From: Streptomyces sp. SAI-127 | GTDB taxonomy: Bacteria > Actinomycetota > Actinomycetes > Streptomycetales > Streptomycetaceae | Length of the DNA: 64,000 bases | NCBI RefSeq assembly: GCF_029894425.1 | Contig: NZ_JARXYJ010000001.1 | Coordinates: 434,001-498,000 of the forward strand | Reading direction: 5' to 3' | Shown here: positions 4,004 through 25,914 of the stretch, piece by piece | Numbering within the stretch: position 1 is the first letter of the stretch | Layout of the letters: each line of letters opens with the position of its first letter | Position numbers and translations under genes: made by a program | The notes under the pieces: generated by a model | The model's input: the letters and a program-made list of their open reading frames with translations, nothing else | Database searches by the model: none | Told to the model about the DNA's origin: nothing

Positions 4004-5431
4004 TCAGGCCGCGGCGACGGCGGCCTCGCGGTGTTCCGTACGGGCGATCAGCAGCCAGGCGCCCGCCGCGGCGGCGAGATACGCGACGCCGATCGCGGCG
4101 AAGCACAGCGCCGCCCCGCGGTTCCAGTCCGAGGTGGCGCCGAGTACGACGCTCATCGCGGCGATGCCCACGAGGGTGCCGATCTGCCGGTTGGCGTTGA
4201 GCACGGATCCGGCCGCGTTCGCGTGCTCGGGGCCGGCGGCGTCCACCAGAGCGGCTGTCATCCCCGGGGAGATGATGCCCGCGCCGATGTTGGCGAGGCC
4301 CACGGCCACCGCCAGCACCCAGTAGGGCGTGGCCGAGGACACCTCGACCATGGTCAGCGAGGCGATCCCGGCGACCAGCAGGAAGACCGTCAGCAGTGCC
4401 CCGTTGGAGAAACGGGCGGAGATGCGCGAGTACACGACGTTGGCCAGCGGGAACCAGATCGTCATCGGCAGCAGTTCGAGTCCGGCCTGGAACGGGGAGG
4501 CACCGCGGGCGTGCTGGAGGTACAGGCTCAACATGAACATGCTGCCGTACAGCGCGAGGTTGAAGAGGAATCCCACCAGGTTGGCACCGGCGAAGCTCGG
4601 CCGGCCGAACAAGCTCCACGGCATTACCAGGTTGTCGGCGCGACGTTCGCGCACCAGCAGCGAAACGGCGGCGACCACCAGCACGACGTACGAGATCACC
4701 ATCCCGCCGGCCCCCCAGCCGAGCCTCGGTCCCTCGATGAGGGCGAAGCTCAGGGCCGCGAGTGCCACGATCCACAGGACATGGCCGGGTACCGCCAGCT
4801 TGGTGGCCCGCGTCTCGGACGCGTCGATGAAGCGCCTGGTCAGCAGGATGCCGATGATGCCGATGGGCAGGTTCAGGACGAAGATGCTCTGCCAGCCGAA
4901 CGCGCTGACCAGAAGACCGCCCACGGTCGGGCCCAGGCCCGCCGAGGTGGCCACGATCGCCGACCACAGGCCCAGCATCCGGGTGCGCTGCCGCTTCTCC
5001 GGGAACGAGAACACCAGCAGGGACAGCGAACTCGGCATGAAGAGCGCGGCCCCCACGCCCTGCAGGAGCCGCGCGACGATCAGCACGACCGCGTTCGGCG
5101 CGAGCGCGCAGCCGAGGGAGGCCACGAAGAAGACGGCCATGCCCCACAGATAGACGTTCTTGGCGCCCAGGCGGTTCGCCAGGCCGCCGGCGAGCAGCAG
5201 CAGCGAACTGAAGACCAGGACGTACCCGTCCACGATCCAGGTCAGCTCCGGCAGCGAGGCGTGCAACTGCTCCTGGATCGCCGAGCCGGCGACGTTGACG
5301 ACGGTCACGTCCAGGGCGGCCATGACGAAGCCGGTGGCGAGGGCGGTCAGCCGCAGTCCGGGGGGCACCTCCCGCCGGGCCGGTGTCACCTCACCGGGCA
5401 ACGGCACTGCTTGGGACTCAGCACGGGGCAT
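4004..5431 (-). CDS. DHA2-type MFS multidrug exporter
   Basis: The 475-residue polytopic membrane protein resembles 14-helix proton antiporters of the EmrB/QacA (DHA2) group. Helix 1 carries MAALDVTVVNVAGSAIQEQL, the usual motif D1 region, followed by WIVDGYVLVFSSLLLLAGGL; the loop after helix 2 carries the motif A variant LANRLGAKNVY. RLLQGVGAALFMPSSLSLL is also present. It likely exports a toxic compound or metabolite. The start follows GGAGGAG by 7 bases. It is divergent from an ArsR-like gene across a region rich in palindromes, so repression by that ArsR is very likely. Confidence 0.93.
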   Translation of the reverse strand: MPRAESQAVPLPGEVTPARREVPPGLRLTALATGFVMAALDVTVVNVAGSAIQEQLHASLPELTWIVDGYVLVFSSLLLLAGGLANRLGAKNVYLWGMAVFFVASLGCALAPNAVVLIVARLLQGVGAALFMPSSLSLLVFSFPEKRQRTRMLGLWSAIVATSAGLGPTVGGLLVSAFGWQSIFVLNLPIGIIGILLTRRFIDASETRATKLAVPGHVLWIVALAALSFALIEGPRLGWGAGGMVISYVVLVVAAVSLLVRERRADNLVMPWSLFGRPSFAGANLVGFLFNLALYGSMFMLSLYLQHARGASPFQAGLELLPMTIWFPLANVVYSRISARFSNGALLTVFLLVAGIASLTMVEVSSATPYWVLAVAVGLANIGAGIISPGMTAALVDAAGPEHANAAGSVLNANRQIGTLVGIAAMSVVLGATSDWNRGAALCFAAIGVAYLAAAAGAWLLIARTEHREAAVAAA

Positions 5432-5536
5432 CGTTCTCTCCTCCGGGAGGGCTCACTGGGGCGAAGAACGACCGCAGACCACCGAAGACCGCGGCCAGGG
5501 ATCTCTCCCCGTGTCCATTGAAACCACTATGACGAT

Positions 5537-5569
5537 GACGGTCAAATTTGATGACCGTCGTCATATGAC
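5537..5569. promoter_or_regulatory. Operator region between MFS and ArsR genes
   Basis: A perfect inverted repeat, GACGGTCA-N7-TGACCGTC (5537-5559), abuts the 10-bp palindrome GTCATATGAC (5560-5569). Related TGACG/CGTCA half-sites flank both. The placement in the short divergent promoter region fits autoregulation by the ArsR protein; the link is inferred. Confidence 0.75.
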
Positions 5570-5620
5570 CGCCGTCGTACGATGAAGGCGTCATACCGGA
5601 ACGCAAGGAGGCCGAGTCAC

Positions 5621-5959
5621 GTGACCGCACCGACCACCGAGCGCATCACCGATCACCTCGCCGCCGAGGACATAGCGCTCCAAGGCGTGCTGGAGGCACT
5701 GGCCGACCCGGTGCGGCGCAGCATCGTGCGCCAACTCGCCGACTCGGAGCGGAACATGGCGTGCGGGACCTTCGACATCAACGTCACACGCTCCACCAGC
5801 ACCCATCACTTCAAGGTGCTGCGAAGGGCGGGAATCCTCAGGCAGCAGTACGAGGGCACGGTCAAGACGAACTCCCTGCGCCGCGCCGACCTGGAGCGCG
5901 CCTTCCCCGGGCTGCTCGACGCGATCATCGAGGCGGCCCGGCGCGAGGCGAAGCAGTGA
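5621..5959 (+). CDS. ArsR/HTH_20-family transcriptional repressor
   Basis: The 112-residue winged-helix protein contains VLEALADPVRRSIVRQLADS followed by a recognition helix in RSTSTHHFKVLRRAGILRQQ and a wing. This is the usual ArsR small-regulator plan, with no CxC metal-binding motif in the alpha-3 helix (one lone Cys in MACGTF), so a metal sensor is unlikely. The GTG at 5621 follows AAGGAG by 10 bases; an upstream ATG at 5582 lies inside the operator zone and is rejected. It is divergent from the DHA2 exporter and probably represses it until a ligand binds. Confidence 0.88.
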   Translation: MTAPTTERITDHLAAEDIALQGVLEALADPVRRSIVRQLADSERNMACGTFDINVTRSTSTHHFKVLRRAGILRQQYEGTVKTNSLRRADLERAFPGLLDAIIEAARREAKQ

Positions 5960-5995
5960 CTGAACATCCGGCGGATGCCCAGGCCGTGCCGGAGC

Positions 5996-6844
5996 TCACC
6001 CGGCCCGCTCGCCGTCGGTCGGGATGGGCATGTAGAGCATGAGCAACGGCTCGGACCTCTGGTGCAGCCCCATGACGACATGGTGGAAGGCGGCCCTGCG
6101 ACCGGGGGCGGGACGCACCTCCACGGTCGCGATCCCCGTGTCCCAGGTCTCGTGCCGCGCCCACATCCGCTCGAAGTCCGGACTCGCCGAGCACAGCCTT
6201 CTCGCCAGGCGTTCGAAGTTCGGATCGTCGAGAAAGCGCACGGCCTGGACCCGGAACTGACCGACGAGGCGGCTCGCCACGTCCGACCAGTGGGGATAGC
6301 GGCTCCTATAGCGGCCGTCGGTGAAGAACGACCAGAGGTAGTTGGAGTCCTTGTCCTGAACACCGAGCAGCGTGCGCGCGGGGCCGTTGCTCACCAGGAC
6401 GTTCCAGTACCGGTCGACCACGAAGGCCGGGGCCGGCTGCCACGCCTCGGTGGCGAGCCGGAGCCGGGACAGCTCCTCCGCGGTGACCTCCTGGCGGGCG
6501 GCCGGCGGGTTGACTCCGGCCAGCAGGTACAGGTGCGCGCGCTCGGTGCGATCCAGGCTGAGCGCCTTGCTGACCGCGTCGAGCACGTCCTCGGACACCT
6601 TGATGTCCCGGCCCTGCTCGAGCCACGTGTACCAGGAGGCGCTCACCCCGGCCAGTACGGCGACCTCCTCGCGCCGCAGCCCCGGCGTGTTCCTGCGCCC
6701 GGCCACCGTCAGCCCGACGTCCCGGGGCGAGAGCCGGGCCCTGCGTGACCTGAGAAAGTGGCGCAGAGCGGCCCGCCGCTCTCTGTCGGCGCCCTTGTTG
6801 TCCCTGGTCTCCTCCTGAGCCGGAGCGACACTGTCGACCTTCAT
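5996..6844 (-). CDS. MmyB-like helix-turn-helix transcriptional regulator
   Basis: The 282-residue protein begins with an XRE-type HTH (about residues 30-100: GLRREEVAVLAGVSASWYTWLEQGRD). A PAS-like MmyB ligand-binding domain follows (AFVVDRYWNVLVSNGPARTLLG onward). MmyB in the methylenomycin cluster activates biosynthesis, and many streptomycete homologues neighbour an oxidoreductase gene that they control. Here an MDR oxidoreductase lies just upstream on the same strand. The start is ATG 6844 after AAGGG; a GTG three codons upstream is possible. Its 3' end is convergent with the ArsR gene, 36 bases away. Confidence 0.9.
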   Translation of the reverse strand: MKVDSVAPAQEETRDNKGADRERRAALRHFLRSRRARLSPRDVGLTVAGRRNTPGLRREEVAVLAGVSASWYTWLEQGRDIKVSEDVLDAVSKALSLDRTERAHLYLLAGVNPPAARQEVTAEELSRLRLATEAWQPAPAFVVDRYWNVLVSNGPARTLLGVQDKDSNYLWSFFTDGRYRSRYPHWSDVASRLVGQFRVQAVRFLDDPNFERLARRLCSASPDFERMWARHETWDTGIATVEVRPAPGRRAAFHHVVMGLHQRSEPLLMLYMPIPTDGERAG

Positions 6845-6896
6845 GCAAGCCACCCTTCACACACGTAGAAGCAGTCCAGGTCACCGACAACGGCTG

Positions 6897-7841
6897 TCAG
6901 AAGGCCAGGATCAGACGCCCCCGGACGCCCCCGGCCTCCAGTCGCCGGTGCGCCTCGAAGGCCCTCTCGGGAGCGAGCACGTCGGCGGTGCGCAGGGTCA
7001 GCACACCCTTCTCCGCCAGCGCGGCCAGCTCCTCCAGGGCGGACCGCTTGGCAGGGTGCCCCGGAACCTGCACCGCGTGGATGGTGATGTCACGTTCCGA
7101 AGCGAGCTCGTAGGGGCGGCACTTGGCGAACCCTCCGCCGTCCTTGACCACTCCCAAGGCGTCGGCACCGATGACAGCCGCGTCGACGATCGCGTCGGCA
7201 CCCTCGGGAACCGCGGCGCGATACGCCCCGGCGAGATCGGCGGTGGCGGTGGCGCGCGGCACGACCAGATCCGCACCGAGCCCGCGGACCAGGTCACGGT
7301 CCCCCACGGCGGCATCGGCGACCACCCGCAACCCACGGTGCTTGGCGAGCTGCACCACATAGCCGCCCAGCGCGCCCGCCGCTCCCGTGACGGCCAGCGT
7401 CGCCCCTGCCGGCAGGTCGAGGAGAGCGAGGGCCAGGTTCGCGGTGAGCCCGTTCATGGGCAGCCCGGCGACATCGCGGAGGTCGAGGCCCCGGGGCGCC
7501 GCGACGACCTGGTCGCGGGGCACCACGATGTACTCGGCCTGGGCTCCGCCACCGGCGTGGAAGGGGTTGACGAAGGCCATGACCGGCTCCCCGACCGCGA
7601 GGTCGACACCGTCACCGACCGCGTCGACGACTCCGGAGGCGTCCATACCGGGGGTGTACGGCGGCTGCTGTCCGGCCAGGGCGGCAGCCAGTGCCCCCGA
7701 ACGCAGCAGCAGGTCGGTGGGGTTGACCCCGGCGGCGGTGACCCGGATACGGACCTGCGCCGCCCTGGGTACGGGCATCGGACGGTCGACGACCTTCAGC
7801 ACTTCGGGTTCGCCGAACTCTTCTATTCCGACAGCGCGCAT
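6897..7841 (-). CDS. Medium-chain (quinone oxidoreductase-like) NADP-dependent oxidoreductase
   Basis: The 314-residue protein starts MRAVGIEEFGEPEVLKVVD, the usual zeta-crystallin/quinone oxidoreductase N-terminus, has the GroES-like fold to about residue 120, and then the Rossmann motif LAVTGAAGALGGYVVQLAK. The structural and catalytic zinc Cys/His sets of alcohol dehydrogenases are absent, so a zinc-free quinone or enone reductase is expected. An upstream ATG at 7958 would add a Pro/Arg-rich tail unlike the family. The gene lies 52 bases upstream of the MmyB-like gene on the same strand, suggesting a shared transcript or regulator-target pair. Confidence 0.88.
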   Translation of the reverse strand: MRAVGIEEFGEPEVLKVVDRPMPVPRAAQVRIRVTAAGVNPTDLLLRSGALAAALAGQQPPYTPGMDASGVVDAVGDGVDLAVGEPVMAFVNPFHAGGGAQAEYIVVPRDQVVAAPRGLDLRDVAGLPMNGLTANLALALLDLPAGATLAVTGAAGALGGYVVQLAKHRGLRVVADAAVGDRDLVRGLGADLVVPRATATADLAGAYRAAVPEGADAIVDAAVIGADALGVVKDGGGFAKCRPYELASERDITIHAVQVPGHPAKRSALEELAALAEKGVLTLRTADVLAPERAFEAHRRLEAGGVRGRLILAF

Positions 7842-13881: not shown

Positions 13882-14626
13882 TCATGAATAGTCGCAGGTC
13901 AGCAGGATGTGAATGGCTTGGACGATGCGGCTGATAGGTCGGGGCGAGCAGCGCGCTCTGCGCATGATGCGCCAGGACTTGAGCCGGGCGAAGGCGCGTT
14001 CGCCGGGGGCTCGTAGGCGGGCGTGGTCGCGGTTGAACTGCTGGTAGTGCTCAGGCTGTTCGCTGTGGTGGTAGTAGGGGGTGCGGACGGCGGTGCCGGC
14101 GCCCTGGTAGGCGCGGTCCGCCAGGACCAGGATGTGTCGGGTCGGGCATGCCTGGACGATGCCGTGGGCACGGGCGGAGGTCAGGTCGTGGGTGCGGCCC
14201 GGGGTGGGGCGGGAGAACCAGGGGCGGTGTGCCGTCAGTTGCAGCGATGACCTGGACGTTCATGCCGTGTTTCTTGTGCTTCTGCGAGTAGTGCGGCTCA
14301 TCCGCGTGGACTCGGTCGGTGGGAATCAGCGTTCCGTCAACGATGACGTGGTCGCCCTCACCGAGGCCGGTGAGGGCTTCGTGCAGGCCGGGAGCCCGGG
14401 AGGCCAGGACGTCCCGGGTCTCGTCGACGTAGCGCCAGGCAGCGCTCTCGGATATGCCGAAACCGGCGCCGAGCTGGGAGAACGTCTCGTTCTTACGCAA
14501 GTGGACCAGGGCGAGAAGAGCCTGCTCGAAGCAACCGAGCCTGCGCCAACGAGTCTTGCGTGTGCGACGGTGCTCGTGCAGCAGCCAGGCAACATGCTCG
14601 ACGAGCTCGCGGAGGACGTCCAGCAT
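13882..14626 (-). pseudogene. IS5-like (DDE_Tnp_4) transposase with one frameshift
   Basis: The N-terminal HTH (WRRLGCFEQALLALVHLRKN, then FSQLGAGFGISESAAWRYV) and first catalytic region (DHVIVDGTLIPTDRV, then KHKKHGMNVQVIAATDGTP) read from ATG 14626. At about 14221-14226 a C-run shifts the frame. The continuation (WFSRPTPGRTHDLTSARAHG, then LADRAYQGAG and GERAFARLKSWR) then runs to the TGA at 13882. The full DDE protein is present apart from this shift. The split lies inside the DDE domain, unlike known IS427 programmed frameshift sites, so mutation is more likely than recoding. IS ends were not found. Confidence 0.78.
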
Positions 14627-15069
14627 GGCTGGGCCGTCCTCCGTCCCTGGGATCGCGGAGCCCTCCCAGTGCCGACGTCTGGCGCCGCACCGAACAAGTG
14701 AGCGAGACCCTTGCACGCTTCACACTGATCGGACGTGCGACGCCGAGGTATGGCTGTACGACTCGGGCGCCTTCTCCGGACTCAGCGACCGCGACGGCCG
14801 GAGGATCGGGGGGACCTGTACGTCCGCGGGTTGCGCCAAGTTGGCCCCGCCTGTAACGAGACGGCGGGCGAAGGTGAGAGCAACGTCGAGGTCCCGGCGA
14901 ACCGGACATCGAATGGATTGAGCGGAGGAGAACGGGGCATAGCAACGTGGGGGTTTGCTCGGAGGAAAACGACGCGCGGGGGCTACGTGACGTTCTTCAG
15001 AGCGAGGCCACGTCAGGCAGGTTACGGCCGGGGGCCTGGAAGGATCGAACGGATCGGTGCGCGGAAGAC
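14627..15069. other. 443-base stretch without a supported gene
   Basis: The region lies between the divergent ends of the IS5-like transposase and the MazG-like gene. Open frames cross it but none has a family match, good start and codon bias together. It should contain the promoter of the MazG/PPDK-like operon. No clear palindrome was noted. Confidence 0.5.
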
Positions 15070-15396
15070 ATGGCCGAAGGAAAGCTGGTCCGGGACGGAA
15101 TCCCCGAGATCATCCGCGCATCCGGTGCACAGCCTGTCCTGTACACCGCCGGTCCCGCTGAGTACAGCGCGCGTCTGCGGGACAAGCTTCGCGAGGAAGT
15201 CGACGAATTCCTCGCGGCCGAGAACAGTCAACAGGCGCTGGAGGAACTTGCCGACGTCCTTGAGGTCCTCCGTGCCCTCAGCGGGGATCTGGGGGCGGAC
15301 TGGCACGTTGTCGAGTCGGTGCGCACAGCGAAGGCGGCAGAACGCGGGTCCTTCGACAGCCGCCTGGTCTGGCTGCGCAACGAGACGGCCGGTTGA
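15070..15396 (+). CDS. MazG-like NTP pyrophosphohydrolase-family protein (phosphoribosyl-ATP pyrophosphohydrolase-like)
   Basis: The 108-residue protein starts MAEGKLVRDGIPEIIRASG, matching the KLVRDKIPEII N-terminus of a small all-alpha pyrophosphohydrolase family. The metal-binding ExxE...ExxD pattern is present (E43/E46 and E59/D62, in REEVDEFL and LEELADVLEVL). Relatives hydrolyse nucleoside triphosphates to monophosphates or act in nucleotide sanitation. It is the first gene of a run with a PPDK-like protein, an unknown, a HIT protein and a NUDIX hydrolase, all linked by nucleotide or phosphoryl chemistry. The ribosome site is weak; a longer N-terminus from GTG 14947 lacks family support. 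Confidence 0.8.
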   Translation: MAEGKLVRDGIPEIIRASGAQPVLYTAGPAEYSARLRDKLREEVDEFLAAENSQQALEELADVLEVLRALSGDLGADWHVVESVRTAKAAERGSFDSRLVWLRNETAG

Positions 15397-15450
15397 CACT
15401 GCCACGCGGCGCCCCGACGTAGCCAAGCCCTAGCACACGGGGAGGCCGTG

Positions 15451-18195
15451 ATGAGTAGTCTACGGATACGCGCTTGGGGCGAGCCCGACCCGGCCGGAAC
15501 AGCGCGCACCCACTGGTCCCTCGACGCCCTGGCCCACCGTGGCTTGCCAACCGTGCCGGGTTTTGGGATCGAGCTTTCGCCCGATCCGAACGGTGCCCGC
15601 ACAGTGGGCGACCTGTCCGAGGCGTTGAGGCGTATCCCTGAGGTGATGCACGTGCTCGCCCCGGGCATGGCGGAGGGTCAGCCGCCGACCGTCCGGGCCA
15701 CTGTCAGCTGCCTTACATCTTTGCCAGGCGCCGGTCCGATGCACGACACGCGGCTGCTCGGCCCGATCCACGTATTACTGACGGGGGGCGAACAGCGCGG
15801 TACGGACGGAGCGTTGTATCTAAAGCGCTTCGTGGAGCAATTCGCGGTCCAGGTTTGCGAGGTTCCCCAGCAGATCTTCGTGAAAACCGAGTTGAAAGCG
15901 TTGTCCGACGCTGGGGTCACACGCGACCGATATCTGTCCGCAACCGCACTGGGACGACTCACATACCGCTTTCTCGACCTGTACGAGAAGAGCACGGGCA
16001 CACGATTTCCCGGTCTTCCCGTCGATCAACTCGCCGTGACCCTCGAGCGGCTGAGCGGCGCCCCGACTCGAACGGGAGCAGAGGAGCAGCGAGCCGTGTC
16101 GTTAGCCGTCCGTCACGTTGTCGACCTCAACACCCCTGGCTTCTGGGGAAGCATCGCGGTGCATTCCTGCGACCCGCGCACCGGCACTCCCACCTTTCAC
16201 TGCGCGTACGCTCCCGGCAGCAGTCTCGACGATCTCCTGGGCGGTGGTGCGGAGGAAGTGCTCGACGCGCGGGAGCTGGAGAGGTCCCATCCGGACCTCG
16301 CCGTGCAAGCCCGGGATCTGTGGTCGCGCGCCAGCACCGGCGACTCCTGTGGTCCGGGGCAAGCCGAGCAGCTGGAGGGTGTGGTGGTCTCCGGTGCGGT
16401 TCTGCTCTGCGGCCGCACCGTTCTTGACCTGACCACGGACGCGTTGGTCACGGCTGCGAACGCGGCCACAGTAGGCAGCGCCGACTGGCTGGCCCTTCTG
16501 GATCGCATGGAACCCGCCCGAATGAGGCGGTTGTTCCATCCGTACTTTGCCAACTCCCAGCCCGACGCCTTGTCCGGGCAGCCCCTGGCCGCCGGAACCG
16601 CCGGGGCGGCGGGAGTGTGCACGGGCGTGGTTTGTCTCGACTCCGCTCATGTGGCACAGGCCCTCCGGCAGAATCTGCCCGCAATCTTCGTCGCGGAGTC
16701 ACCACTGCCCGAACACATGCCGAACGTACTCCAGGCAACCGGACTCGTATATGGAACCGGCGGCCTGACGTCTCATGTCGCGGTCATAGCGCGCGGTGCC
16801 GGCAAGCCTTGTGTCATGGGCGTGTCCTCCCTGCGAGTGCCGCAGGAACGAGACGTGTGCTTCCTAGGGGGAGAAAAGGTCGCCGTCGGAGGCTGGTTGA
16901 GCGTCGACGGCGACAAAGGCGTCCTGTACAAGGGCCGCCGTGTCACGGTTTCGCCGACAGTCGAAACGCACGGCCCGGTCGCCACGCTGCTGCAACACTG
17001 CGACGACCGGGCTCAGGTCCGGATCTACGCCAACGCGGACACTGCCGACGAGGCCGCCACAGCCTTCGGGCACGGCGCCAGAGGCATCGGGCTCTGCCGA
17101 CTGGAGCACTTGATGGTCAGGCCGAGCCTCCACGCGCTGCTCCAGGAAACCCTCGTGCTTACCCTGGCCACGAGTGAGTTGTCCCGAGAGGAAGCCGTTG
17201 CCCGCGCTCAACTGAACCGCTGGGGACGCAGCACCGGGGCAGTGGCATCGTACGAGGAGACGATCCGCAACTCGGTCCGGAGCCCATCATATGTGCGCTA
17301 CAAGGAATGTCTGGACGCGCTGAGGCAACTATTGGCGGACGAACTCACCGCCCTGCTGAGGTCCGCGGACGGACGGACAGTGGTCGTCCGGCTGCTTGAC
17401 GCGCCGCTGTCGGAATTCCTGCCGCAGGAGGAGGTCCTGAGGGAGAGGATGGGGTCACTTCTGACGGAAACCCAGATCAGGGCTGCCTCCAGAAGGGCCC
17501 ACCTAGCGGACTCGTCGCTGGGACTGCGTGGTGCACGCCTGTGCCTGACGGCGCCCGAACTGGCCGCGATGCAGGTCAAGGCCCTCTTCATTGCCGCGTT
17601 GCGGGCGAGCGAGGCGTCGAATGAGGTGAATCTCGGCGTGCTGGTGCCCATGGTGAGCGCGCCTGAGGAACTCCGCGTCATCCGAACCATGGTGAACGAG
17701 GTCGCCACCGAGCTCTCTGTGGCGCAGTCCGGGGTACGCCATCGTTTCGGATCCATGGTGGAAACTCCGCGTGCCGCCCTCGTGGCCGGTGAACTGGCCC
17801 GTGAATGCGACTTCTTGTCCTTCGGTACCAACGACCTGGCTCAGGCGACCTGGGCGAGCTCCCGAGAATTGGCCGAATCGACCTTCCTGGCGCATCCGGC
17901 CTACCGGCAGATGTCGGCAACACCCTTCCAGGAATTCGACGCCCAGGGCGTGGGTCGATTGATGTCAGTGGCCCTGGCCGAGGCGCGCGCGGTCAAACCG
18001 GGAATGACCGTGGGCATCTGTGGTGAGCAGGGCAGCCGGCCGGACATCCTGGAGTTCTCCGCCCGATTGCGGATCGACTACGTCAGCTGCCCATCCCCCG
18101 CCGTGCCGAGTGCACGCCTGATAGCTGGCCGTCTGGGCCCTGTACACGGTCGGGAAGCGTCGCTGCGGACAGGCGGCGACAGCGGCCGTCCGTGA
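15451..18195 (+). CDS. Pyruvate-phosphate-dikinase-like PEP-utilising protein with degenerate ATP-grasp domain
   Basis: The 914-residue protein follows PPDK along its whole length. Residues 1-340 match the ATP-binding region but have lost its signatures: the usual VRSGA...PGMMDT stretch reads VRATVSCLTSLPGAGPMHDT, and the conserved QDxEF and LQxR residues near its end are missing. The phosphohistidine swivel is intact (GGLTSHVAVIARGAGKPCVMG, His442). The PEP-binding TIM barrel (about 520-885) keeps GIGLCR, SMVETPRAALVAGE, FLSFGTNDLAQATW and GICGEQGS with the acid/base Cys857. It should bind PEP/pyruvate and carry phosphate on His442, but may not bind ATP alone. ATG 15451 follows GGAGG by 5 bases. 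Two TTA codons (residues 109 and 218) suggest bldA dependence. Confidence 0.85.
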   Translation: MSSLRIRAWGEPDPAGTARTHWSLDALAHRGLPTVPGFGIELSPDPNGARTVGDLSEALRRIPEVMHVLAPGMAEGQPPTVRATVSCLTSLPGAGPMHDTRLLGPIHVLLTGGEQRGTDGALYLKRFVEQFAVQVCEVPQQIFVKTELKALSDAGVTRDRYLSATALGRLTYRFLDLYEKSTGTRFPGLPVDQLAVTLERLSGAPTRTGAEEQRAVSLAVRHVVDLNTPGFWGSIAVHSCDPRTGTPTFHCAYAPGSSLDDLLGGGAEEVLDARELERSHPDLAVQARDLWSRASTGDSCGPGQAEQLEGVVVSGAVLLCGRTVLDLTTDALVTAANAATVGSADWLALLDRMEPARMRRLFHPYFANSQPDALSGQPLAAGTAGAAGVCTGVVCLDSAHVAQALRQNLPAIFVAESPLPEHMPNVLQATGLVYGTGGLTSHVAVIARGAGKPCVMGVSSLRVPQERDVCFLGGEKVAVGGWLSVDGDKGVLYKGRRVTVSPTVETHGPVATLLQHCDDRAQVRIYANADTADEAATAFGHGARGIGLCRLEHLMVRPSLHALLQETLVLTLATSELSREEAVARAQLNRWGRSTGAVASYEETIRNSVRSPSYVRYKECLDALRQLLADELTALLRSADGRTVVVRLLDAPLSEFLPQEEVLRERMGSLLTETQIRAASRRAHLADSSLGLRGARLCLTAPELAAMQVKALFIAALRASEASNEVNLGVLVPMVSAPEELRVIRTMVNEVATELSVAQSGVRHRFGSMVETPRAALVAGELARECDFLSFGTNDLAQATWASSRELAESTFLAHPAYRQMSATPFQEFDAQGVGRLMSVALAEARAVKPGMTVGICGEQGSRPDILEFSARLRIDYVSCPSPAVPSARLIAGRLGPVHGREASLRTGGDSGRP

Positions 18196-18234
18196 GGCTC
18201 TGCGTGGCAGGCCGGGACGAACGGGAGGACGACG

Positions 18235-19080
18235 ATGGTGCTCGCGCTAGATGTCCGGGAACGGTTTGCCGCACTGCGGCTGCCGAGTGCTGCGAACGGC
18301 CTTGCCGGACAGCAACCGCTGCTGCGGGAAGAGGAGTTAGCGGCCGAACCGCTGAAGTGGCTGAAATATCTGGTGCTGGCACGCACGGGCCTCGAGTCCC
18401 TGAAGACGATCGAGGAGCAGGTCAAGCGGTTCGACCTGTCCCAGGTCGACGAAGCGGTGCAGTGGACCACGGACCGGCTGGCGGGGAGAGGGCGGGACCA
18501 CATGGTCGTGATCAAGGTAGTCCCGTGGCACAGAGGAGCGCAGCTCGCGAACTGCCGCGTCTCCGACGTCGAGGAGGTCCCGGCCGCGTTTGCCCGGATC
18601 CGGGAGCAGAACGAGGGACTCAGGCACGAACTGTGGTGCTGCGATTCCTCGGTGGACACGAGCGGCTTCAACCTCGGCGGTCGGCTCACGGTACCCGGAC
18701 CGGATGGGGAGCAGGTGCTAGAGATGGTGTGGTACGCCAGCCCACGGCTCATCGAGAGCGTGACGCTGCCGGACTTCGACCGTCCGTATATACGGGCCGT
18801 ACGTACACGTCCCACCTGCACGTTCGACGTGCAGGTGATACATGTGCCATCCGCCTACCGGCGTGTCACGTCCCCCGAGGGTGTTCCTGACGACGGGCCG
18901 TGGCGGGGCGATTTCAGGGCTGTCGCCCGAGAACTGCATGAGCGCAGAGAGGCCATCGGGCGCCTTGCCCAGTGCCTGCGTGAAATAGGCGCCCAGGAAG
19001 CCTGCCTCTGCTTCAAGGTCAGTGACGGGCGGCTCACGGTCATCGACTGGGACACGGAAATCGAGAGCAGTGCCCGGTGA
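18235..19080 (+). CDS. Unknown protein, candidate detached ATP-grasp partner of the PPDK-like protein
   Basis: The 281-residue protein lies 39 bases after the PPDK-like gene, with GGAGG ahead of the ATG. It matches no family I recognise with certainty. Its layout recalls the ATP-grasp half of PEP synthase or PPDK: a strand with lysine in HMVVIKVVPWHRG, a strand-helix VSDVEEVPAAFARIREQ, an acidic strand ending EQVLEMVWYASPRLIES, and a C-terminal IGAQEACLCFKVSDG then LTVIDWDTEIES. The last segment resembles the region where ATP-grasp proteins place metal ligands. Because the neighbour has lost these residues, it may supply ATP phosphorylation in trans. This is inference. One TTA codon (residue 35). 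Confidence 0.55.
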   Translation: MVLALDVRERFAALRLPSAANGLAGQQPLLREEELAAEPLKWLKYLVLARTGLESLKTIEEQVKRFDLSQVDEAVQWTTDRLAGRGRDHMVVIKVVPWHRGAQLANCRVSDVEEVPAAFARIREQNEGLRHELWCCDSSVDTSGFNLGGRLTVPGPDGEQVLEMVWYASPRLIESVTLPDFDRPYIRAVRTRPTCTFDVQVIHVPSAYRRVTSPEGVPDDGPWRGDFRAVARELHERREAIGRLAQCLREIGAQEACLCFKVSDGRLTVIDWDTEIESSAR

Positions 19081-19114
19081 CGGATCGGGAACCGGAGCGA
19101 TATCGACACGGTCG

Positions 19115-19243
19115 TCACCGGCCGGTCTCGTCGGCATCGCCCTCCTCCCGGTCCCGGTCCTGTGCGCGCTGGCGACTGTAGTCCAGGATGATCTGCGCCG
19201 CCGTCAGAAGAACGCTGGACAGCGCGAGAACTGTGTCGACCAT
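19115..19243 (-). CDS. 42-residue single-helix membrane peptide
   Basis: ATG 19243 follows GGAGGGGA by 3 bases on the minus strand, a very good ribosome site. The peptide starts MVDTVLALSSVLLTAAQIIL, one hydrophobic helix, then a charged tail with RQRAQDRDREEGDADE. It lies antisense in the gap between the unknown gene (ending 19080) and the HIT gene. No family is recognised. Possible roles are a small membrane regulator or a type I toxin-like peptide; no antitoxin RNA can be shown from sequence. It is too short for normal gene callers. Confidence 0.55.
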   Translation of the reverse strand: MVDTVLALSSVLLTAAQIILDYSRQRAQDRDREEGDADETGR

Positions 19244-19258
19244 GTCTCCCCTCCAAGG

Positions 19259-19284
19259 ACTTGGCGGGCCTACGCCCGCCAAGT
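19259..19284. promoter_or_regulatory. Stable hairpin upstream of the 42-residue peptide
   Basis: A perfect 11-bp inverted repeat (ACTTGGCGGGC and its complement) with a 4-base loop starts 16 bases upstream of the small gene's start. It could terminate the plus-strand operon ending at 19080 or act in the leader of the minus-strand peptide gene. Confidence 0.6.
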
Positions 19285-19483
19285 CAGGAAAAGGAACAGG
19301 GCTGCCCAGGGCCTGCCCATGCCGTGACCAGCCGTGCCCGGGATATGCCCCAACCCCGGGCACCTCCATGAAACTTGTCCTCTGCACTTTGCGGACTCCA
19401 TGGGTTACTCTCCGCTGAATGTCGCCGACTCGTACGACCGTCCAGGCCCGATGCGTCGAGCGCACACCACCCCAGGAGGACGG

Positions 19484-20200
19484 GTGTCCGGACCGAACCT
19501 CGCTCCTCCGCACTGCGGGAGCATCGCTACGTGCCAGTTCTGTACGAAGGACTACGAGGGCCGGGTGATCCTGGAGACGGCGAACTTCGTCGCCATCGCT
19601 GGCCTGGGCCCTCTGGCGGAGGGGTATGTCCTAGTCGTGACCCGCGTTCATGTGTCCTGCATCGCGGCGGCGCCGACCGCGTGGGGGGACGAGCTGGAAG
19701 AACTCCGCCGGACGATCGCGACCGCTCAACGTGGCGTGTATGGAGCCTCGTTCTTCTTCGAGCACGGCCGAAGCGGAGCCTGCCTACCGGAGGGAGAGGG
19801 CGAGGACCACTGCTACCACGCGCATCTGCACCTGGTGGCGTCTGCGGTCGACCTGCCCGCGGCTGTCAGCCAGGATCATCGTCTCGTGCCGCTGCGTGAC
19901 TGGCAGCACCTCATCGACCACTACGCCCAGGACCCCCTGCCGTACATCATGGTCGAGCGCGCCAACGGCGGCATCGGGTATGTGCCGACCCCGAAGAAGC
20001 TGCCCCGGCACTATCTGCGGACGAAGACCGCCGAATTGCTGGGCGTCCCCGAACTCGCGGACTGGATGGCCTTCCCCCGGCTCGACGTGGTCGAACGAGG
20101 CCGGAGCCGGCTCAGCGCGGTGATAGCAGGAGCGGAGCCCCGGCGCAGTGGACACGGACACCCGGTTGACCAACCACCCGATCGATGGGACCAGCGCTGA
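19484..20200 (+). CDS. HIT-family (histidine triad) protein with N-terminal CxxC
   Basis: The 238-residue protein carries CQFC (C17, C20), a zinc pair usual in HIT proteins, a PLAEGYVLVVTRVHVSCI strand region like the HIT core, and the triad HAHLHL (H112, H114, H116). HIT proteins hydrolyse or transfer nucleotides on phosphoramidate, dinucleotide or adenylated substrates. The C-terminal 100 residues extend beyond a simple HIT domain. The GTG at 19484 has AGGAGG 4 bases upstream; ATG 19451 is an alternative. The stop overlaps the NUDIX start (TGATG), so the two are translationally coupled and probably act in one pathway. Confidence 0.85.
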   Translation: MSGPNLAPPHCGSIATCQFCTKDYEGRVILETANFVAIAGLGPLAEGYVLVVTRVHVSCIAAAPTAWGDELEELRRTIATAQRGVYGASFFFEHGRSGACLPEGEGEDHCYHAHLHLVASAVDLPAAVSQDHRLVPLRDWQHLIDHYAQDPLPYIMVERANGGIGYVPTPKKLPRHYLRTKTAELLGVPELADWMAFPRLDVVERGRSRLSAVIAGAEPRRSGHGHPVDQPPDRWDQR

Positions 20201-20697
20201 TGGCCGAGACGAAGGTTCAGTTCGCACAGAAGGCTGTGATCATCGAGGCGGGCAAAATTTTGCTGATCCGTAAGGGCGCCGGAGATCCCTACCAGCCGCT
20301 GAAGTGGGAGATCCCCGGGGGGCGGCTCGAAAGCGGCGAATCACTCGACGAGCACATCAAACGGGAGGTCAGGGAGGAGGTGGGGCTCGAGATCGAGGCC
20401 CACGAACCCCTTGCGATCTGGTCTTGGACGCTGAATACGCGTGCGGAGGTCCTCACGGTCGTCGCCGTCTCGCGTCGTTGCTCGGCTCTGACCACCGACA
20501 TCAGTCTGCAGAGCGAGGGTGATTGCATCGTGGAGAGCAACTGGGTCGATCTGTCGGACGTGCGGCATGTCGACCTCATTCCCAACGCTCGTGCGGCGAT
20601 TCTGGAGTCAATCGAGCTGGTGCGACGCAGGACAACTCCGCACGGCCCCGGTGGGGATACATACATCCGCCCTGCTGATCGCAGAGTGCCTCAGTGA
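20200..20697 (+). CDS. NUDIX hydrolase
   Basis: The 165-residue protein has a perfect Nudix box at residues 41-63 (GRLESGESLDEHIKREVREE followed by VGL), preceded by KWEIPGG. The family cleaves nucleoside diphosphates linked to another moiety, using Mg2+ held by the REVREE glutamates. The exact substrate cannot be read from sequence. It begins inside the stop codon of the HIT gene (TGATG). Its 3' end overlaps the STAND ATPase gene on the other strand by 7 bases. With MazG-like, PPDK-like and HIT neighbours it points to metabolism or clean-up of a modified nucleotide. Confidence 0.93.
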   Translation: MAETKVQFAQKAVIIEAGKILLIRKGAGDPYQPLKWEIPGGRLESGESLDEHIKREVREEVGLEIEAHEPLAIWSWTLNTRAEVLTVVAVSRRCSALTTDISLQSEGDCIVESNWVDLSDVRHVDLIPNARAAILESIELVRRRTTPHGPGGDTYIRPADRRVPQ

Positions 20698-23240
20698 CCT
20701 GACCACGGGGCGCGGACGCCCATGAGGGCCTCACGCACCTCATCCGCCTGAGGGTCGTTGAGCTCGTTAAACAGCGTGAGGGCCTCGGCCCAGGCAGTCC
20801 GGGCCGCCTCCACATGACCCAAGTCGAGTTGGGTTTGTGCCAGCTGGTGCAAGGTACACGCGATACCCCACCGGTCCTCGAGCCCCCGTCGGATCGCGAG
20901 CGCTTGGGCAAGATATTCCATGCCCTGCTGTACCTGTGCCGACTTAGAGTGCGACACACCCAGATTGTGCAGCGTCCGGCCTTCTCCCCAGTGATCCTGC
21001 ACTTCCCTGCGCAGCAGCAACGCGTCTGTGAGGTAGCCAATGGCGTGCGCGTGTTCGCCCAGGGACTGATATGCCTCGCCAAGGTTGTTCAAGCACCATG
21101 CTTGACCGTGCCGATCGGATATCTCTCGGCGCAGGTCCAGGGACTTTCGATAGGACTCGATGGCCAGATCGAAGCAACCGGTCTCACGCTGGGCGTTGCC
21201 CAGGCTATCCAGGGCTGAAGCCTGGCCCACGGTGTCGCCGATCGCAACGCGATTCATCAGCGCTTCCTGATGGAAGGCGACGGCCTCCTCGAACCGGCCC
21301 AGTTGCTTGCAGACCGTCCCAAGCCCGTTGAGCACGCGGCCTTCGCCGTACGGGTCCCCTGCGGCACGGGCGGCAGTGAGCGCCACCTCGTGGGTGGTGG
21401 TCCAGTCTGTCCAGTGCTTGCGGATGTTGAAGAACCCGCGTAGCACAACCGCAAGTTGCCAGGCCGGCACATGCAGGCCGTGCTCATCCGCCTGCACCAC
21501 GACCCGCGTCAGATTGGAGCGCTCGCTCTCGCACCATGCCATGGCCCTCGCGTAGTCGGCTAACACTGGGACCTCCGCCGGCTCCTCCAACGGGTGCAAT
21601 GGGAACGACTGTCGCTGCGGCATGATCATTCGGTTCGCGGATTCCGCCGCGTGCAAATACCAGGTGGCCAGGCGTTCGACTCCGGAACGGAGTTCCGCGG
21701 GCTCCTCCTGCTGCTCAGCACGTTCTTTGGCGTAGGAACGCAGCAGGTCATGGAAGCCGTAGCGGCCCGCTTCCCCTTCCTCGACGAGATGGTCGCGGAC
21801 CAGCGATGCCAGGCTGGCGCGTGCGGCATGCGGGGGCAGTCCGGCCAGCGCAGCCGCGGCGGGCATGGTGATGTCAGCGCCGGCCTGTACCCCCAGCAGT
21901 CTGAACATCCGAGCATCGGTGTCCTTGAGGCTCTTGTACGACCAGGAGAAGACCGACCTTACTGCAGTGGATTCGTCGTCGAGGCTCAACTCGTCGAGCC
22001 GGCCGGTCTCGTCCTCCAATTCCGCCACCAGGGACGCTAGTGACCGACGTGGGTGCGTGACCGCCCGTTCCCCTGCGATGCGCAGAGCCAACGGGAGATA
22101 AGAACACAGCCGTGACATCTCCATGAACTGAATCTCGTCATCGGGCCCGTTTCTAGCCGTCATCTCGCGCAGCAACTCCACCGATTCCAATTCGGAAAGC
22201 AGGTCGAGAGTGATACGGCGAGCCGAATGCGTCGTGGTCAATCCGGACAGTCGACTTCGGCTCGTCACCAGGACGAGGCAGTTCGCGGACGCGGGCAGCA
22301 GGGGCCGGACTTGATCAGGAGTCGCCGCGTTGTCCAGCACGACGAGCATACGTTTGTCGTGCAGCAACGTCCGGAAGAGCCCTGCCTTCTCGTCGACTCC
22401 ATCGGGGATCTTCTTCGGTGAGACTCCCAGGGCGCGCAAGAAGTAATCCAGAGCCTCGGCCGCGGTGACCGGGGCGGAGAAATCGTAACCGCGCAGGTTG
22501 ATGAAGAGGTCCCCATCGGGGAAACGCTCGCGTACTCGGTGGGCCCAGTGCACGGCCAGGGTTGTCTTGCCCGCTCCGGCAGTACCGTCGATGGCAGAAA
22601 TGATCACCGCCCTCGATGCTGGGTTCGTGTCTCGACCCAGCATGCGGTCCAGCTGGGTGATGGCGTCGTCCCGACCCACGAAGTCACCGATCGTCGTGGG
22701 CAGTTGCCTGGGAACGGGATCTGAGCGGCTCGGGCTCTGATGCGCGGTCCCTTGACGCTTAGGGCTGTCCGTGGGCATGTCCTGATCTAGGATTCCGGCC
22801 TTCCCGTTCAGCATCTGTGGTCCCGCCGCAAGGCGGCTTCGGGCGAGGTCGACGATTGCGGCCGCAATTTGCGTGAGGAGCCTCTCCTCCAGCCCTCGCT
22901 GACGGAAGTGGCTCAAGGAGTAGCCGTACACGTCGGCCGCTCGCGTTCTGCGTTCCACTGAGCGAAGGAACCGGATATCGCTGTCCAACCCGAACTCAGC
23001 GCGGAGCGCCTTCCGGTCCAGCTCCGTCAGTTCCGGCAGAATTTCCAGTAGAACATTGCGAACCAATTCACCTTGTCGTGTCGGCGGTCGGTCCAGAATA
23101 ATCAAGGCCAGCTTCTCGAAATGAGGAATGACTGGCAGAGGGTCCACGTCCAGGCGGACCGGCACACGGTCTCGTATTCGCTTCAACTCCGGTACGATGT
23201 CCGATACTTGGCCAGCATCCTGGATCGACATGACGTTCAT
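20691..23240 (-). CDS. STAND-family ATPase: N-terminal domain of unknown type, NB-ARC, C-terminal TPR
   Basis: The protein has 849 residues from ATG 23240. Residues 1-150 are helical and not recognised (LVRNVLLEILPELTELDRKA, RFLRSVERRTRAADVYGYSL). NB-ARC follows with P-loop GTAGAGKTT (219-227), Walker B RMLVVLDNAA and the CLVLVTSRSRLSGL sensor. After a winged-helix region come TPR repeats (for example ALDSLGNAQRETGCFDLAIE). STAND proteins are switches that oligomerise when the TPR part senses a signal; in streptomycetes they are regulators or defence sensors. No nuclease or protease effector motif is visible. A TTA codon lies at 21561-21563. The start is uncertain (ATG 23231 also possible). 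Confidence 0.88.
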   Translation of the reverse strand: MNVMSIQDAGQVSDIVPELKRIRDRVPVRLDVDPLPVIPHFEKLALIILDRPPTRQGELVRNVLLEILPELTELDRKALRAEFGLDSDIRFLRSVERRTRAADVYGYSLSHFRQRGLEERLLTQIAAAIVDLARSRLAAGPQMLNGKAGILDQDMPTDSPKRQGTAHQSPSRSDPVPRQLPTTIGDFVGRDDAITQLDRMLGRDTNPASRAVIISAIDGTAGAGKTTLAVHWAHRVRERFPDGDLFINLRGYDFSAPVTAAEALDYFLRALGVSPKKIPDGVDEKAGLFRTLLHDKRMLVVLDNAATPDQVRPLLPASANCLVLVTSRSRLSGLTTTHSARRITLDLLSELESVELLREMTARNGPDDEIQFMEMSRLCSYLPLALRIAGERAVTHPRRSLASLVAELEDETGRLDELSLDDESTAVRSVFSWSYKSLKDTDARMFRLLGVQAGADITMPAAAALAGLPPHAARASLASLVRDHLVEEGEAGRYGFHDLLRSYAKERAEQQEEPAELRSGVERLATWYLHAAESANRMIMPQRQSFPLHPLEEPAEVPVLADYARAMAWCESERSNLTRVVVQADEHGLHVPAWQLAVVLRGFFNIRKHWTDWTTTHEVALTAARAAGDPYGEGRVLNGLGTVCKQLGRFEEAVAFHQEALMNRVAIGDTVGQASALDSLGNAQRETGCFDLAIESYRKSLDLRREISDRHGQAWCLNNLGEAYQSLGEHAHAIGYLTDALLLRREVQDHWGEGRTLHNLGVSHSKSAQVQQGMEYLAQALAIRRGLEDRWGIACTLHQLAQTQLDLGHVEAARTAWAEALTLFNELNDPQADEVREALMGVRAPWSGH

Positions 23241-23432
23241 GGTGTCACACCACGACGGATCTGGGCAGAGCGAAGCAGCCTGCCAACCGCGCCGCCGTCG
23301 GCACTCCAGCAACAACTCGCCCATCGGACGGGAAGGCGAACTCGATCGCTCTCGACACCCTGCCCATCAGGGAAGCAGAACGCGGCGTGGCGGGAGTCTC
23401 CTGGAAGATCTTCGTCCACTTCCACGCCTGCT

Positions 23433-23665: not shown

Positions 23666-24187
23666 ATGGCCATGGGGGACACGGGTGGCCGCATCGACGC
23701 TCTGCTCCGTGGAATCGTAGGTGAATACCTCGGCAACTTCGAGGAAGCGGCCGGTCATTCGGCGGCTCTGGCCCAATTCGGATACCTCACGATGAGTGGT
23801 GGCGAATGGGACCACAAGCGGCAACTCCAGCAGAGGTTCGCCCTGGAGTCCTCGGACTTCCGAACGGAGATTCTGGCCAACGGCCCGGGAGGAAAGCTCC
23901 TCTACGATGTCTGGTCGAACATCCACTTCGGCTACGCAGGACGAGCTGCCGGGTTCGGCCGAGGCGAACTGATCGTGGGATCGCACGGGACCGGCGCAGC
24001 GTTCGGAGCGACAGACGAAGGGGGCGGTGACGACATATCGATCACCGTGGGAATGGATCTTTACGACCGGCTCGGTCCGGACATCACGGAAATGGACCTC
24101 CACCGAGCGATCGTGGACGCCATTCCCGGATGGCAGGCCGCTTCCGCAGGATCCGACGACAGCTGGGAATACAAGGTGATCCCGTGA
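23666..24187 (+). CDS. Polymorphic toxin type 44-like domain protein, probably truncated
   Basis: The 173-residue product contains GEWDHKRQLQQRF, LLYDVWSNIHFGYAGRAAGF and ISITVGMDLYDRLGPDITEMDLHRAI divided over its length. These match my knowledge of the type-44 (Ntox44, predicted RNase) C-terminal toxin domain. Such domains normally sit at the end of large secreted proteins, and here no delivery part exists. The frame begins at ATGs (23666, 23672) exactly where an IS remnant stops, so the N-terminus was probably lost in a deletion. The stop overlaps the start of a lipoprotein gene by 4 bases (GTGA), the usual toxin-immunity arrangement. Confidence 0.65.
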   Translation: MAMGDTGGRIDALLRGIVGEYLGNFEEAAGHSAALAQFGYLTMSGGEWDHKRQLQQRFALESSDFRTEILANGPGGKLLYDVWSNIHFGYAGRAAGFGRGELIVGSHGTGAAFGATDEGGGDDISITVGMDLYDRLGPDITEMDLHRAIVDAIPGWQAASAGSDDSWEYKVIP

Positions 24188-24798
24188 GAACAACGTTCCG
24201 GAACCGCAGCGTCCCTGCCGGCCTGATCGCCGTGCTGCTCGGCGTTCTTTCGGGCTGCGACGACCCGGAGTCCATCCCGGAGCCCGACATCGATCTGAGC
24301 GCCATGATCCTGCCCACGGCCGGGCTCACGGATGGCGAGTGCGGCGGCTCGTACGTCGACGTGAAGGACGGGGCGGGGTCCGGGGGCGACGCCCGGCTGT
24401 ATCACGCGACGCGCTGGTGGCGTACGGAACTCGGCTCCACGTCCGAGGGGTGCACCCTCGGGCAGTACGTCGGCTTCTACGGGGACACGGGGCGGGCGAA
24501 GGAGGTCTTCGGGCAGCAGTCTCCCGACAAGTACTACGCCAAGACGTGGCCGTGGAAGCCGAAGTTCGTCGACGCCCCCGAAGGGCTGAACGCCGACAGA
24601 ACCCAGGTGATCTGCCTGGACGGAGCTCCGGCGACCGGGTGCACCGAGTGGTACTACTGGGCGCAGTACGGGAAAGCCCTGTTCAAGATGTCGATGTCCC
24701 ATCTCGCGGGCGACCTTCCGAAAATCTCCGAAGGGGACTTCCTGCGGAACGTCCGTTCAGCGGACGCGCGGGTCGACGGGGTTCTCGGCTCCTTGTAG
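24184..24798 (+). CDS. Lipoprotein, candidate immunity protein for the upstream toxin domain
   Basis: The 204-residue protein begins at GTG 24184 with a signal peptide ending in the lipobox VLSGC (C25). The mature part is rich in Trp, Tyr and Gly, with paired Cys (DGECGGSY, EGCTLGQY, VICLDGA, TGCTEWYY). No family is recognised. It overlaps the toxin-domain gene by 4 bases, so the pair is translationally coupled. A surface-anchored protein encoded right behind a polymorphic toxin module is a natural immunity candidate, but the pairing is inference. An upstream ATG at 24130 lies inside the toxin gene and would spoil the signal peptide. Confidence 0.65.
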   Translation: MRTTFRNRSVPAGLIAVLLGVLSGCDDPESIPEPDIDLSAMILPTAGLTDGECGGSYVDVKDGAGSGGDARLYHATRWWRTELGSTSEGCTLGQYVGFYGDTGRAKEVFGQQSPDKYYAKTWPWKPKFVDAPEGLNADRTQVICLDGAPATGCTEWYYWAQYGKALFKMSMSHLAGDLPKISEGDFLRNVRSADARVDGVLGSL

Positions 24799-25042: not shown

Positions 25043-25914
25043 TCTTCAGCGTTGCCGCTCCAGGGTGAGGACGGCGGCGGCGATTGACGTCATTCGATTC
25101 GGGCTGCACCGGGCCCTGCGGAAATTCCGCCATGACTTCAGCCGCGCGACGCCACGCTCGACCGGTGCCCGTGCTGCGGACAGCGCGCGGTTGACGGTCT
25201 GTTGCGTGGGTGTGAGGTCACGGCCCGGCGGGCGTCTGAGGGCCGTCGTCACCCACGGGCCGGCTCCCATATAGGCACGGTCAGCGAGAACCGGCACGCC
25301 CTGGCGCTCACAAATCCGGATGATCCTGTGGGTGCGGGCCGCAGTGAGGTCGTGCGCACGGCCGGGCAGTGCGGGCGAGATCCACAGCAGCCGCCCGGCA
25401 GGGTCGGTCACCACCTGCACGTTCACCCCGTGCCGGCGGTGCTTGTGAGAGAAGTCGGCCCGGCTGTCGCCGACCCGGTCGCACTCCGCAAGTGTGCCAT
25501 CCAACAGGACGTAGTCCGGATCGGCCTCACGCAGGGCACGCAGCAGGCAGGGCGCGCGGTCGGCCAGCAGGTCGACGACGGCTGCCACGTAGGCGTGCGC
25601 GGTGCCGACGGAGATGCCGAACCCGGCAGCGGGCTGGGCGAGGGTGTCGTGCCGACGCAGGTACACCAAACCGACCAGGGCACGCTGGTGCGGCGGGAGC
25701 TTGCAGCGGCGGTCACCCTCGCGGGTGACGATAAGCATCGTGACCCACTCGACCAGGGCATGAGGCAGGTCGAGTGCGGCAGAATACGGAACCAACGCGG
25801 CTCCTGTGCCTGTGGGTTGAGACTTCGAACACCTCCCCCAACGGCACGGGAGCCTCGTGCGTTGCGTGACCGCCGGTGTCACCCGATCAGTGGCCACTCT
25901 GAAACAGCTCAGTG
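25035..25914. mobile_element. Apparently complete 0.88 kb IS5-like insertion sequence
   Basis: Imperfect terminal inverted repeats of about 23 bp bound the element: CAGTGATGTCTTCAGCGTTG on the left, and the complement of CACTGAGCTGTTTCAGAGTG on the right (25892-25914). The right repeat matches the left end of the remnant at 23433 even better (18 of 23). One transposase gene fills the element. No target duplication could be identified. It cuts a DUF397 gene on the left and ends 41 bases before the broken membrane-protein gene on the right. Confidence 0.75.
25046..25795 (-). CDS. IS5-like (DDE_Tnp_4) transposase
   Basis: The frame is intact over about 249 codons from TTG 25795 (GGAG just upstream). 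An HTH region contains [19 protein letters not shown] and [15 protein letters not shown]. The DDE core includes [56 protein letters not shown] and [16 protein letters not shown]. The catalytic Asp in LLDGT, Asp in LADRAY and Glu in VERG are all present, so the enzyme may be active. An ATG at 25897 would extend it into the terminal repeat and is rejected. Confidence 0.87.

Follow-up and report, generated by a model that had tools for sequence, protein, structure and literature searches.

Organization of the locus

The window, i.e., the whole stretch of DNA analyzed here (64,000 nt), comprises bases 434001–498000 of a 9.97-Mb contig of Streptomyces sp. SAI-127, the assembly totaling 10.7 Mb. Five plus-strand ORFs that an initial annotation had placed at 15070–20697 were all confirmed there. 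They encode, in order, a MazG-like/PRA-PH all-alpha nucleotide pyrophosphohydrolase of the "KLVRD" type (15070–15396, 108 aa), a PPDK-derived protein (15451–18195, or from 15448 if the start is GTG; 914 aa), a protein modeled as a stand-alone ATP-grasp fold (18235–19080, 281 aa; hereafter the third protein), a HIT-superfamily hydrolase/transferase with a C-terminal extension (19484–20200, 238 aa), and a NUDIX hydrolase (20200–20697). GGGGAGG lies 5′ of the ATG of the PPDK-like gene, 39 bases with a good ribosome-binding site separate that gene from the third gene, and AGGAGGA lies 5′ of the GTG start of the HIT gene. The NUDIX ATG at 20200 shares one base with the HIT stop codon (TGATG). Between the third gene and the HIT gene is a gap of ~400 bases (19081–19483), in which a 9-bp perfect inverted repeat can be read directly (19334–19342 and 19355–19363), so that the five genes probably form two units, MazG–PPDK–ATP-grasp and HIT–NUDIX. 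The repeat is a possible attenuator, terminator or operator; a terminator scan requiring a T run called none in the locus. The same gap contains a minus-strand ORF of 42 codons (19115–19243) whose ribosome-binding site is strong and whose product has a hydrophobic segment; a Pfam search of it returned no match.

Convergent with these genes is a minus-strand gene (20691–23324) for an NB-ARC/TPR (STAND) protein (NB-ARC: E = 5.5e-12, together with TPR repeats), which is AfsR/HaaT-like at scores far below the NCBIfam cut-offs, and an Ntox44-domain ORF (23666–24187, E = 2.5e-12) adjoins it. Genes of the same Pfam transposase families flank both sides on the minus strand: a remnant at 14051–14716 (HTH_Tnp_4, with DDE_Tnp_4 partial and below cut-off) and an ORF at 25046–25897 (HTH_Tnp_4: E = 2.6e-16; DDE_Tnp_4: E = 2.7e-27). 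GC3 is 0.73–0.79 in the five genes, the NB-ARC/TPR gene (0.75) and the Ntox44 gene, and 0.81–0.95 in 30 other window ORFs; these 30 had to reach 200 aa and a GC3 well above GC2, a selection that biases the set toward high GC3. All 43 other window ORFs of the gene caller, some of them surely spurious, have a mean GC3 of 0.845 and a minimum of 0.61, and an ORF bordering the region (24130–24798) has 0.86. GC3 and the flanking transposase genes together suggest that the five-gene locus is an acquired island. The STAND gene is possibly a regulator that arrived with the island, its membership in the system being conjectural. Transposase genes on both sides and lower GC3 would also fit a distinctly unlikely reading in which unrelated acquired genes were joined by transposition into no functional unit, the PPDK-like gene being a decaying paralogue; the open frame of 914 codons, the good ribosome-binding sites and the overlapping HIT–NUDIX pair argue against it.

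A PPDK-like protein that keeps its PEP half

The PPDK-like protein matches the Pfam PEP domain (PF02896, E = 1.5e-55) and the swivel domain (PF00391, E = 6.7e-14). PF01326 (PPDK_N), which detects three other genes of the same genome, misses this one, with no match at E up to 1. NCBIfam models leave the protein outside the families that they define: 395.8 bits against a cut-off of 843.45 for the PPDK equivalog (TIGR01828), and 19.3 against 999 for the RPH model NF041857. Catalytic residues were read from an alignment and are numbered as in PPDK. As in PPDK (EC 2.7.9.1), the swivel His and all seven swivel and PEP residues checked (H455, R561, R617, E745, N768, D769 and C831) are kept. Unlike in PPDK, eight of the nine ATP-site positions checked (K22, R92, T253, R254, the Glu of QGEDVV, D321, E323, Q335 and R337) have changed, E323 being the one kept: the Lys22 column is a gap, and Arg92, Thr253, Arg254, the QGEDVV Glu, Asp321, Gln335 and Arg337 are replaced. 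The change of the QGEDVV Glu is a conservative one, to Asp, and least confidence attaches to the Arg92 column, the protein having an Arg a few residues off; the loss is therefore clearest for Lys22, Arg254, Asp321, Gln335 and Arg337.

The asymmetry between the two halves is also visible in overall identity to five reference PPDKs (three from other genomes and two of its own genome), which is 22–25% over residues 20–380, 31–33% in the swivel and 37–44% in the PEP part; the RPH-type gene of the same genome (L097) aligned poorly (19–21%) and was excluded from these ranges and from the five PPDKs. A further difference from PPDK is a ~38-residue insertion in the PEP half, which is lacking in three aligned PPDKs. 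A single-sequence structure prediction of the PPDK-like protein reached a pLDDT of 37 and was left out of the analysis. With one of nine ATP-site residues and seven of seven swivel and PEP residues kept, we accept two proposals of the initial annotation, that the ATP-grasp domain has decayed and that phosphoryl transfer from PEP to His442 seems possible. His442, in the swivel motif GGLTSH, and Cys857 are correctly numbered if translation starts at the ATG at 15451, and become 443 and 858 from the GTG at 15448. Judged from the sequence, the cis ATP site looks dead. The degraded half would suit a decaying paralogue; the restriction of decay to that half, with every PEP residue checked intact, would not.

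Among the 8000 candidates scored, a limit beyond which distant relatives may lie, the N-terminal part of the PPDK-like protein matched only itself. Used as a query, it found weak matches in 50 other genomes of the 296 of the class. Five of these 50 loci were read: three hold a full ordinary PPDK (L027, L028 and L031), one an ordinary ATP-grasp and swivel protein that is in part visible (L029), and one a gene not called by the gene caller (L030). The PPDK-like protein also resembles PTS enzyme I, in which PEP charges a His on a swivel domain and the PEP barrel is related; unlike enzyme I, it scores 105 bits against a cut-off of 341.7 on the corresponding equivalog (TIGR01417), and no PTS family occurs among the Pfam matches of eight window proteins.

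The third protein has a predicted ATP-grasp fold

The third protein, which the initial annotation had listed as an unknown, has no match in Pfam, PADLOC or NCBIfam. Its structure model (pLDDT 91) is an ATP-grasp fold, and on this model we assign it as an ATP-grasp-fold protein. Rifampin phosphotransferase (RPH) and PEP synthase rank first in Foldseek, and the longest structural alignments (209–219 residues) are with RPH, PEP synthase and HpeI, followed by PatZ (208). By Z, succinyl-CoA synthetase and synapsin score equally well, and LysX-type ligases only slightly lower. Sequence profiles gave no link to PPDK_N, a sequence search against solved structures found no ATP-grasp, and by eye the protein has no counterpart of Glu323.

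Because of the tie by Z, a ligase is possible. The third protein would then be an independent amide- or thioester-forming ligase in a small specialized-metabolite cluster, with the PPDK-like protein acting alone as a PEP-dependent phosphotransferase or PEP-binding enzyme. We consider this somewhat unlikely, though with an appreciable chance of being right. The nearness of LysX-type ligases and the AfsR-like STAND gene adjoining the locus are in its favor; RPH and PEP synthase as best Foldseek matches, and the position of the third gene directly 3′ of a superfamily protein without exactly the ATP-grasp function, speak against it. We propose that the third protein is the nucleotide/substrate subunit of a pair formed with the PPDK-like protein.

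Two-component dikinases provide a precedent. According to PMC12167813, HpeHI, CreHI and PpsAB require both components; in structure, the ATP-grasp subunit HpeI is homologous to the ATP-grasp domain of RPH, and HpeH to its swivel and RIF-binding domains. The window proteins are similar in that a separate protein of ATP-grasp fold, here by model, accompanies a swivel-His subunit of the RPH/PPDK superfamily. They differ from HpeHI in two respects: the swivel subunit here has a complete PEP/pyruvate domain next to its decayed ATP-grasp, whereas HpeH has swivel and RIF-binding-type domains only and no PEP domain, and the third protein has no sequence link to the PPDK_N profile.

Relatives of the third gene were found in 46 other protein clusters. 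Only the window copy was recovered from 297 genomes of the family and from 394 genomes of the class (draws that overlap with the family set), and none from 298 genomes of another family, a set without a positive control. Plasmids and viral contigs yielded none, and the genome contig collection one locus, from a Clostridia MAG (L008), with no PPDK-like match in its 8.6 kb. At 4581–7304 of that locus, the third-gene relative (E = 2e-24) is followed directly 3′ by a radical-SAM/NUDIX fusion.

MazG-like, HIT, and NUDIX proteins

The initial annotation had taken the partner proteins to be phosphate-bond enzymes, and the intact MazG, HIT and NUDIX motifs are in line with this. The MazG-like protein exceeds the Pfam PRA-PH cut-off (22.6 vs. 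21.3 bits) and has a complete EExxE…ExxD metal site (EEVDE at 42, ELAD at 59); it is 58% identical over 101 residues to a protein on a plasmid of Streptomyces sp. Mg1, and MazG-like relatives were found in none of 40 other relatives at E 1e-3. The NUDIX protein matches Pfam NUDIX (E = 1.4e-14, 54.6 bits vs. a cut-off of 21.1) with a perfect NUDIX box (GRLESGESLDEHIKREVREEVGL), and a search of plasmids returned 15 records, all below 60% identity. The HIT protein carries an intact HAHLH triad at 112; among 21 aligned sequences, H112 and H116 are invariant and H114 occurs in at least 90%. The Pfam HIT score is under the cut-off (17.7 vs. 21.5), and the HIT family profile detects solved HIT proteins with a best E of 1.6e-8. 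Profile A2 matches CWF19L1 over positions 10–194 (E = 7.3e-8), covering both the core and the C-terminal extension, whereas its match to the best ordinary HIT chain is limited to positions 4–135, the core; Pfam CwfJ_C_1 gives 0.0089, below cut-off. The window protein is therefore like the C-terminal HIT region of CWF19L1/CwfJ in core and extension, and unlike it in being bacterial and stand-alone, with no splicing context.

Another reading is a defense or stress system based on a modified nucleotide, which the PPDK-like/ATP-grasp pair would make and the hydrolases degrade, and to which the STAND gene would respond. We give this reading the least credence of those considered. The STAND and Ntox44 genes lie beside the locus, and the NUDIX protein matches the PADLOC candidate PDC-S07 (E = 7.8e-17). 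This is the one strong match of the five genes, which correspond to none of the named systems in PADLOC-DB 2.0.0 (2023), and NUDIX is a broad family. The PPDK-like, ATP-grasp and HIT proteins have no PADLOC match at E up to 1, and the MazG-like protein has only PDC-M64B at 0.019. None of the five genes is an obvious effector, the HIT protein has no match in the phage collection, and no relative of its family was confirmed in viral contigs.

Gene neighborhoods in other genomes

The complete five-gene set was seen in no other genome searched. Relatives of the HIT protein (53 other) and of the third protein (46 other) have one longest contig size in common, 1,247 bp, which is too short for both genes; the longest contig is at least 10 kb in 22 third-gene and 10 HIT clusters. 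Some HIT match was present in 178 of 296 genomes of the class, and at least seven other genomes have a near-full match to the HIT profile without an internal stop, by reading of the matches listed. In a phylum search with a widened HIT profile, the matches listed are mostly ordinary HIT proteins, and among them only the window protein spans the greater part of the profile uninterrupted by an internal stop.

We examined the neighbors at 12 other HIT-branch loci by a six-frame scan, with raw counts: seven in genomes of the class, four on plasmids found with the window HIT protein (L013 being a fragment), and one on a Caulobacter plasmid found with the fusion protein of genome G452 described below. 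The third-gene family occurs in none of the 12. A MazG-like match was found in three, ~3 kb from the HIT gene in L011 and within a fusion protein one gene away in L053 and L060, for which the nearest yardstick is the MazG-like query with its 0 of 40 other relatives. NUDIX was likewise found in three: L058 and L059, where one kinase gene separates it from the HIT gene (43% and 37% identity to the window NUDIX), and L056, ~4.6 kb away (38% identity over 47 residues). A Pfam-recognized PPDK_N gene (E = 8e-10) lies ~3.5 kb from the HIT gene in L054, and a full PEP synthase-type gene at a similar ~3.5 kb in L058; both genes are among the sequences that make up the PPDK_N profile of the scan. The remaining five loci (L010, L012, L013, L055 and L057) have no MazG-like, NUDIX or PPDK_N match. 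L055 and L056 share one type of cluster, and so do L053 and L060, which leaves fewer independent events than loci.

Several neighborhoods have a character of their own. In L058 (8321–10324) and L059 (7164–8869), NUDIX, P-loop kinase (Cytidylate_kin2 in L058, by eye in L059) and HIT-branch genes stand in a row, followed by a protein of 429–456 aa whose L058 copy has no Pfam match. In L055 and L056, the HIT-branch gene lies between adenylate-forming enzymes, with an FAD-like oxidoreductase (both by eye), and L055 adds a TauD dioxygenase and a DUF6624 protein that resembles nucleoside deoxyribosyltransferases at a score below cut-off; this looks like a small biosynthetic cluster. A trio of HIT-branch protein, small membrane protein and an 815–847-aa protein with a MazG-like domain occurs in L053 (4968–8686, genome G452) and in L060 (6702–10358, a plasmid of Caulobacter rhizosphaerae), and so spans two phyla. 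In G452, a type III restriction enzyme is encoded ~1.6 kb from the trio, and a search for the large protein in 74 other genomes of the family of G452 gave no match. A suggestion that the MazG fusions are tandem PPDK_N-like ATP-grasps had come from visual inspection of motif patterns and from a pairwise match to L054 (E = 0.002); it was established neither by Pfam (for the G452 protein) nor by profile searches, a profile comparison giving a probability of 2.8%, and the fusions are not counted as such. Only by eye does Lys41 or Lys44 correspond to PPDK Lys22.

The neighbors bear differently on the alternatives. For an independent ligase in a specialized-metabolite cluster, there are class V aminotransferases adjacent to the HIT gene or one gene away (L010 and L011 by Pfam, L012 by eye, and a fragment in L013 by annotation), the dioxygenase and the deoxyribosyltransferase-like match of L055, the adenylate-forming enzymes of L055 and L056, and phosphoribosyl-type genes in L012. 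For defense, there are the restriction enzyme near the G452 trio and weak PADLOC matches among the neighbors of the Caulobacter trio (mad2, 3.7e-5; PDC-M11A, 3.4e-8; PDC-S73, 1.7e-5), against which the three G452 trio proteins and two of the three Caulobacter ones, those scanned, have no PADLOC match at 1e-3. The lack of the complete set elsewhere fits genes that form no functional unit, and the intact motifs and the proximity of HIT to NUDIX and to MazG-like genes, each recurring in three of the 12 loci, do not.

The proposal that the five genes form one conserved system is not supported: the complete set was found in no other genome searched, and the third gene at none of the 12 HIT-branch loci. 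By the test of co-occurrence that the initial annotation itself had put forward, the strict one-system idea weakens. A recurring association survives in part, for HIT with MazG-like and HIT with NUDIX genes and not for the full set. In the genomes seen, conservation does not extend to the exact set, but pairs recur: HIT–NUDIX at three loci, HIT–MazG at three, and third gene–NUDIX at one.

A tentative model of PEP-driven phosphotransfer

A literature search returned no paper on this gene set, for which PEP chemistry together with nucleotide clean-up is plausible. Our leading reading, a tentative one to which we give somewhat less than an even chance, is that an acquired operon encodes a two-component phosphotransferase of the PPDK/RPH superfamily with associated nucleotide hydrolases. 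The PPDK-derived subunit, whose residues for this step are observed, would take a phosphoryl group from PEP onto swivel His442, and its own ATP-grasp, because of the lost residues, would no longer be a nucleotide site. The swivel would then give the phosphoryl group to, or take it from, a substrate on the separate ATP-grasp protein, a partnership that we infer from adjacency, the modeled fold and the HpeHI precedent; with the PEP barrel intact, the pair could run on PEP. The product would be a small phosphorylated molecule, for which a nucleotide is a plausible candidate. The MazG-like enzyme and the HIT–NUDIX pair may cleave nucleotide by-products or process the product, a role suggested by their motifs and by the recurrence of the HIT branch near MazG-like or NUDIX genes.

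The two-component reading draws on the placement of the third gene directly 3′ of a PPDK-family protein that is missing exactly the ATP-grasp function. Against it stand the lack of a profile link between the third protein and PPDK_N, the tie by Z with ligases, the five of 12 HIT-branch loci with no MazG-like, NUDIX or PPDK_N match, and the sole third-gene relative read in context, that of the Clostridia MAG, which has no PPDK-like neighbor. A broader reading, which we consider unlikely, is that the locus belongs to a scattered, undescribed family of systems that handle nucleotides, in which a central CwfJ-C-like HIT enzyme is joined by changing sets of MazG-like, NUDIX, nucleotide-kinase and PPDK-superfamily ATP-grasp partners; here PEP instead of ATP would charge a swivel His that serves an ATP-grasp in trans. 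We know of no described counterpart of PEP-to-nucleotide phosphorylation via a swivel His and a trans ATP-grasp.

The HIT/MazG and HIT/NUDIX neighborhoods provide a handle on a HIT branch that we have not met as described in bacteria. PPDK-family enzymes are modular swivel machines. If the two-component reading is true, it would show a PEP-driven swivel domain serving a separate subunit in trans, and the two-protein PEP system could reveal a new phosphorylated metabolite.
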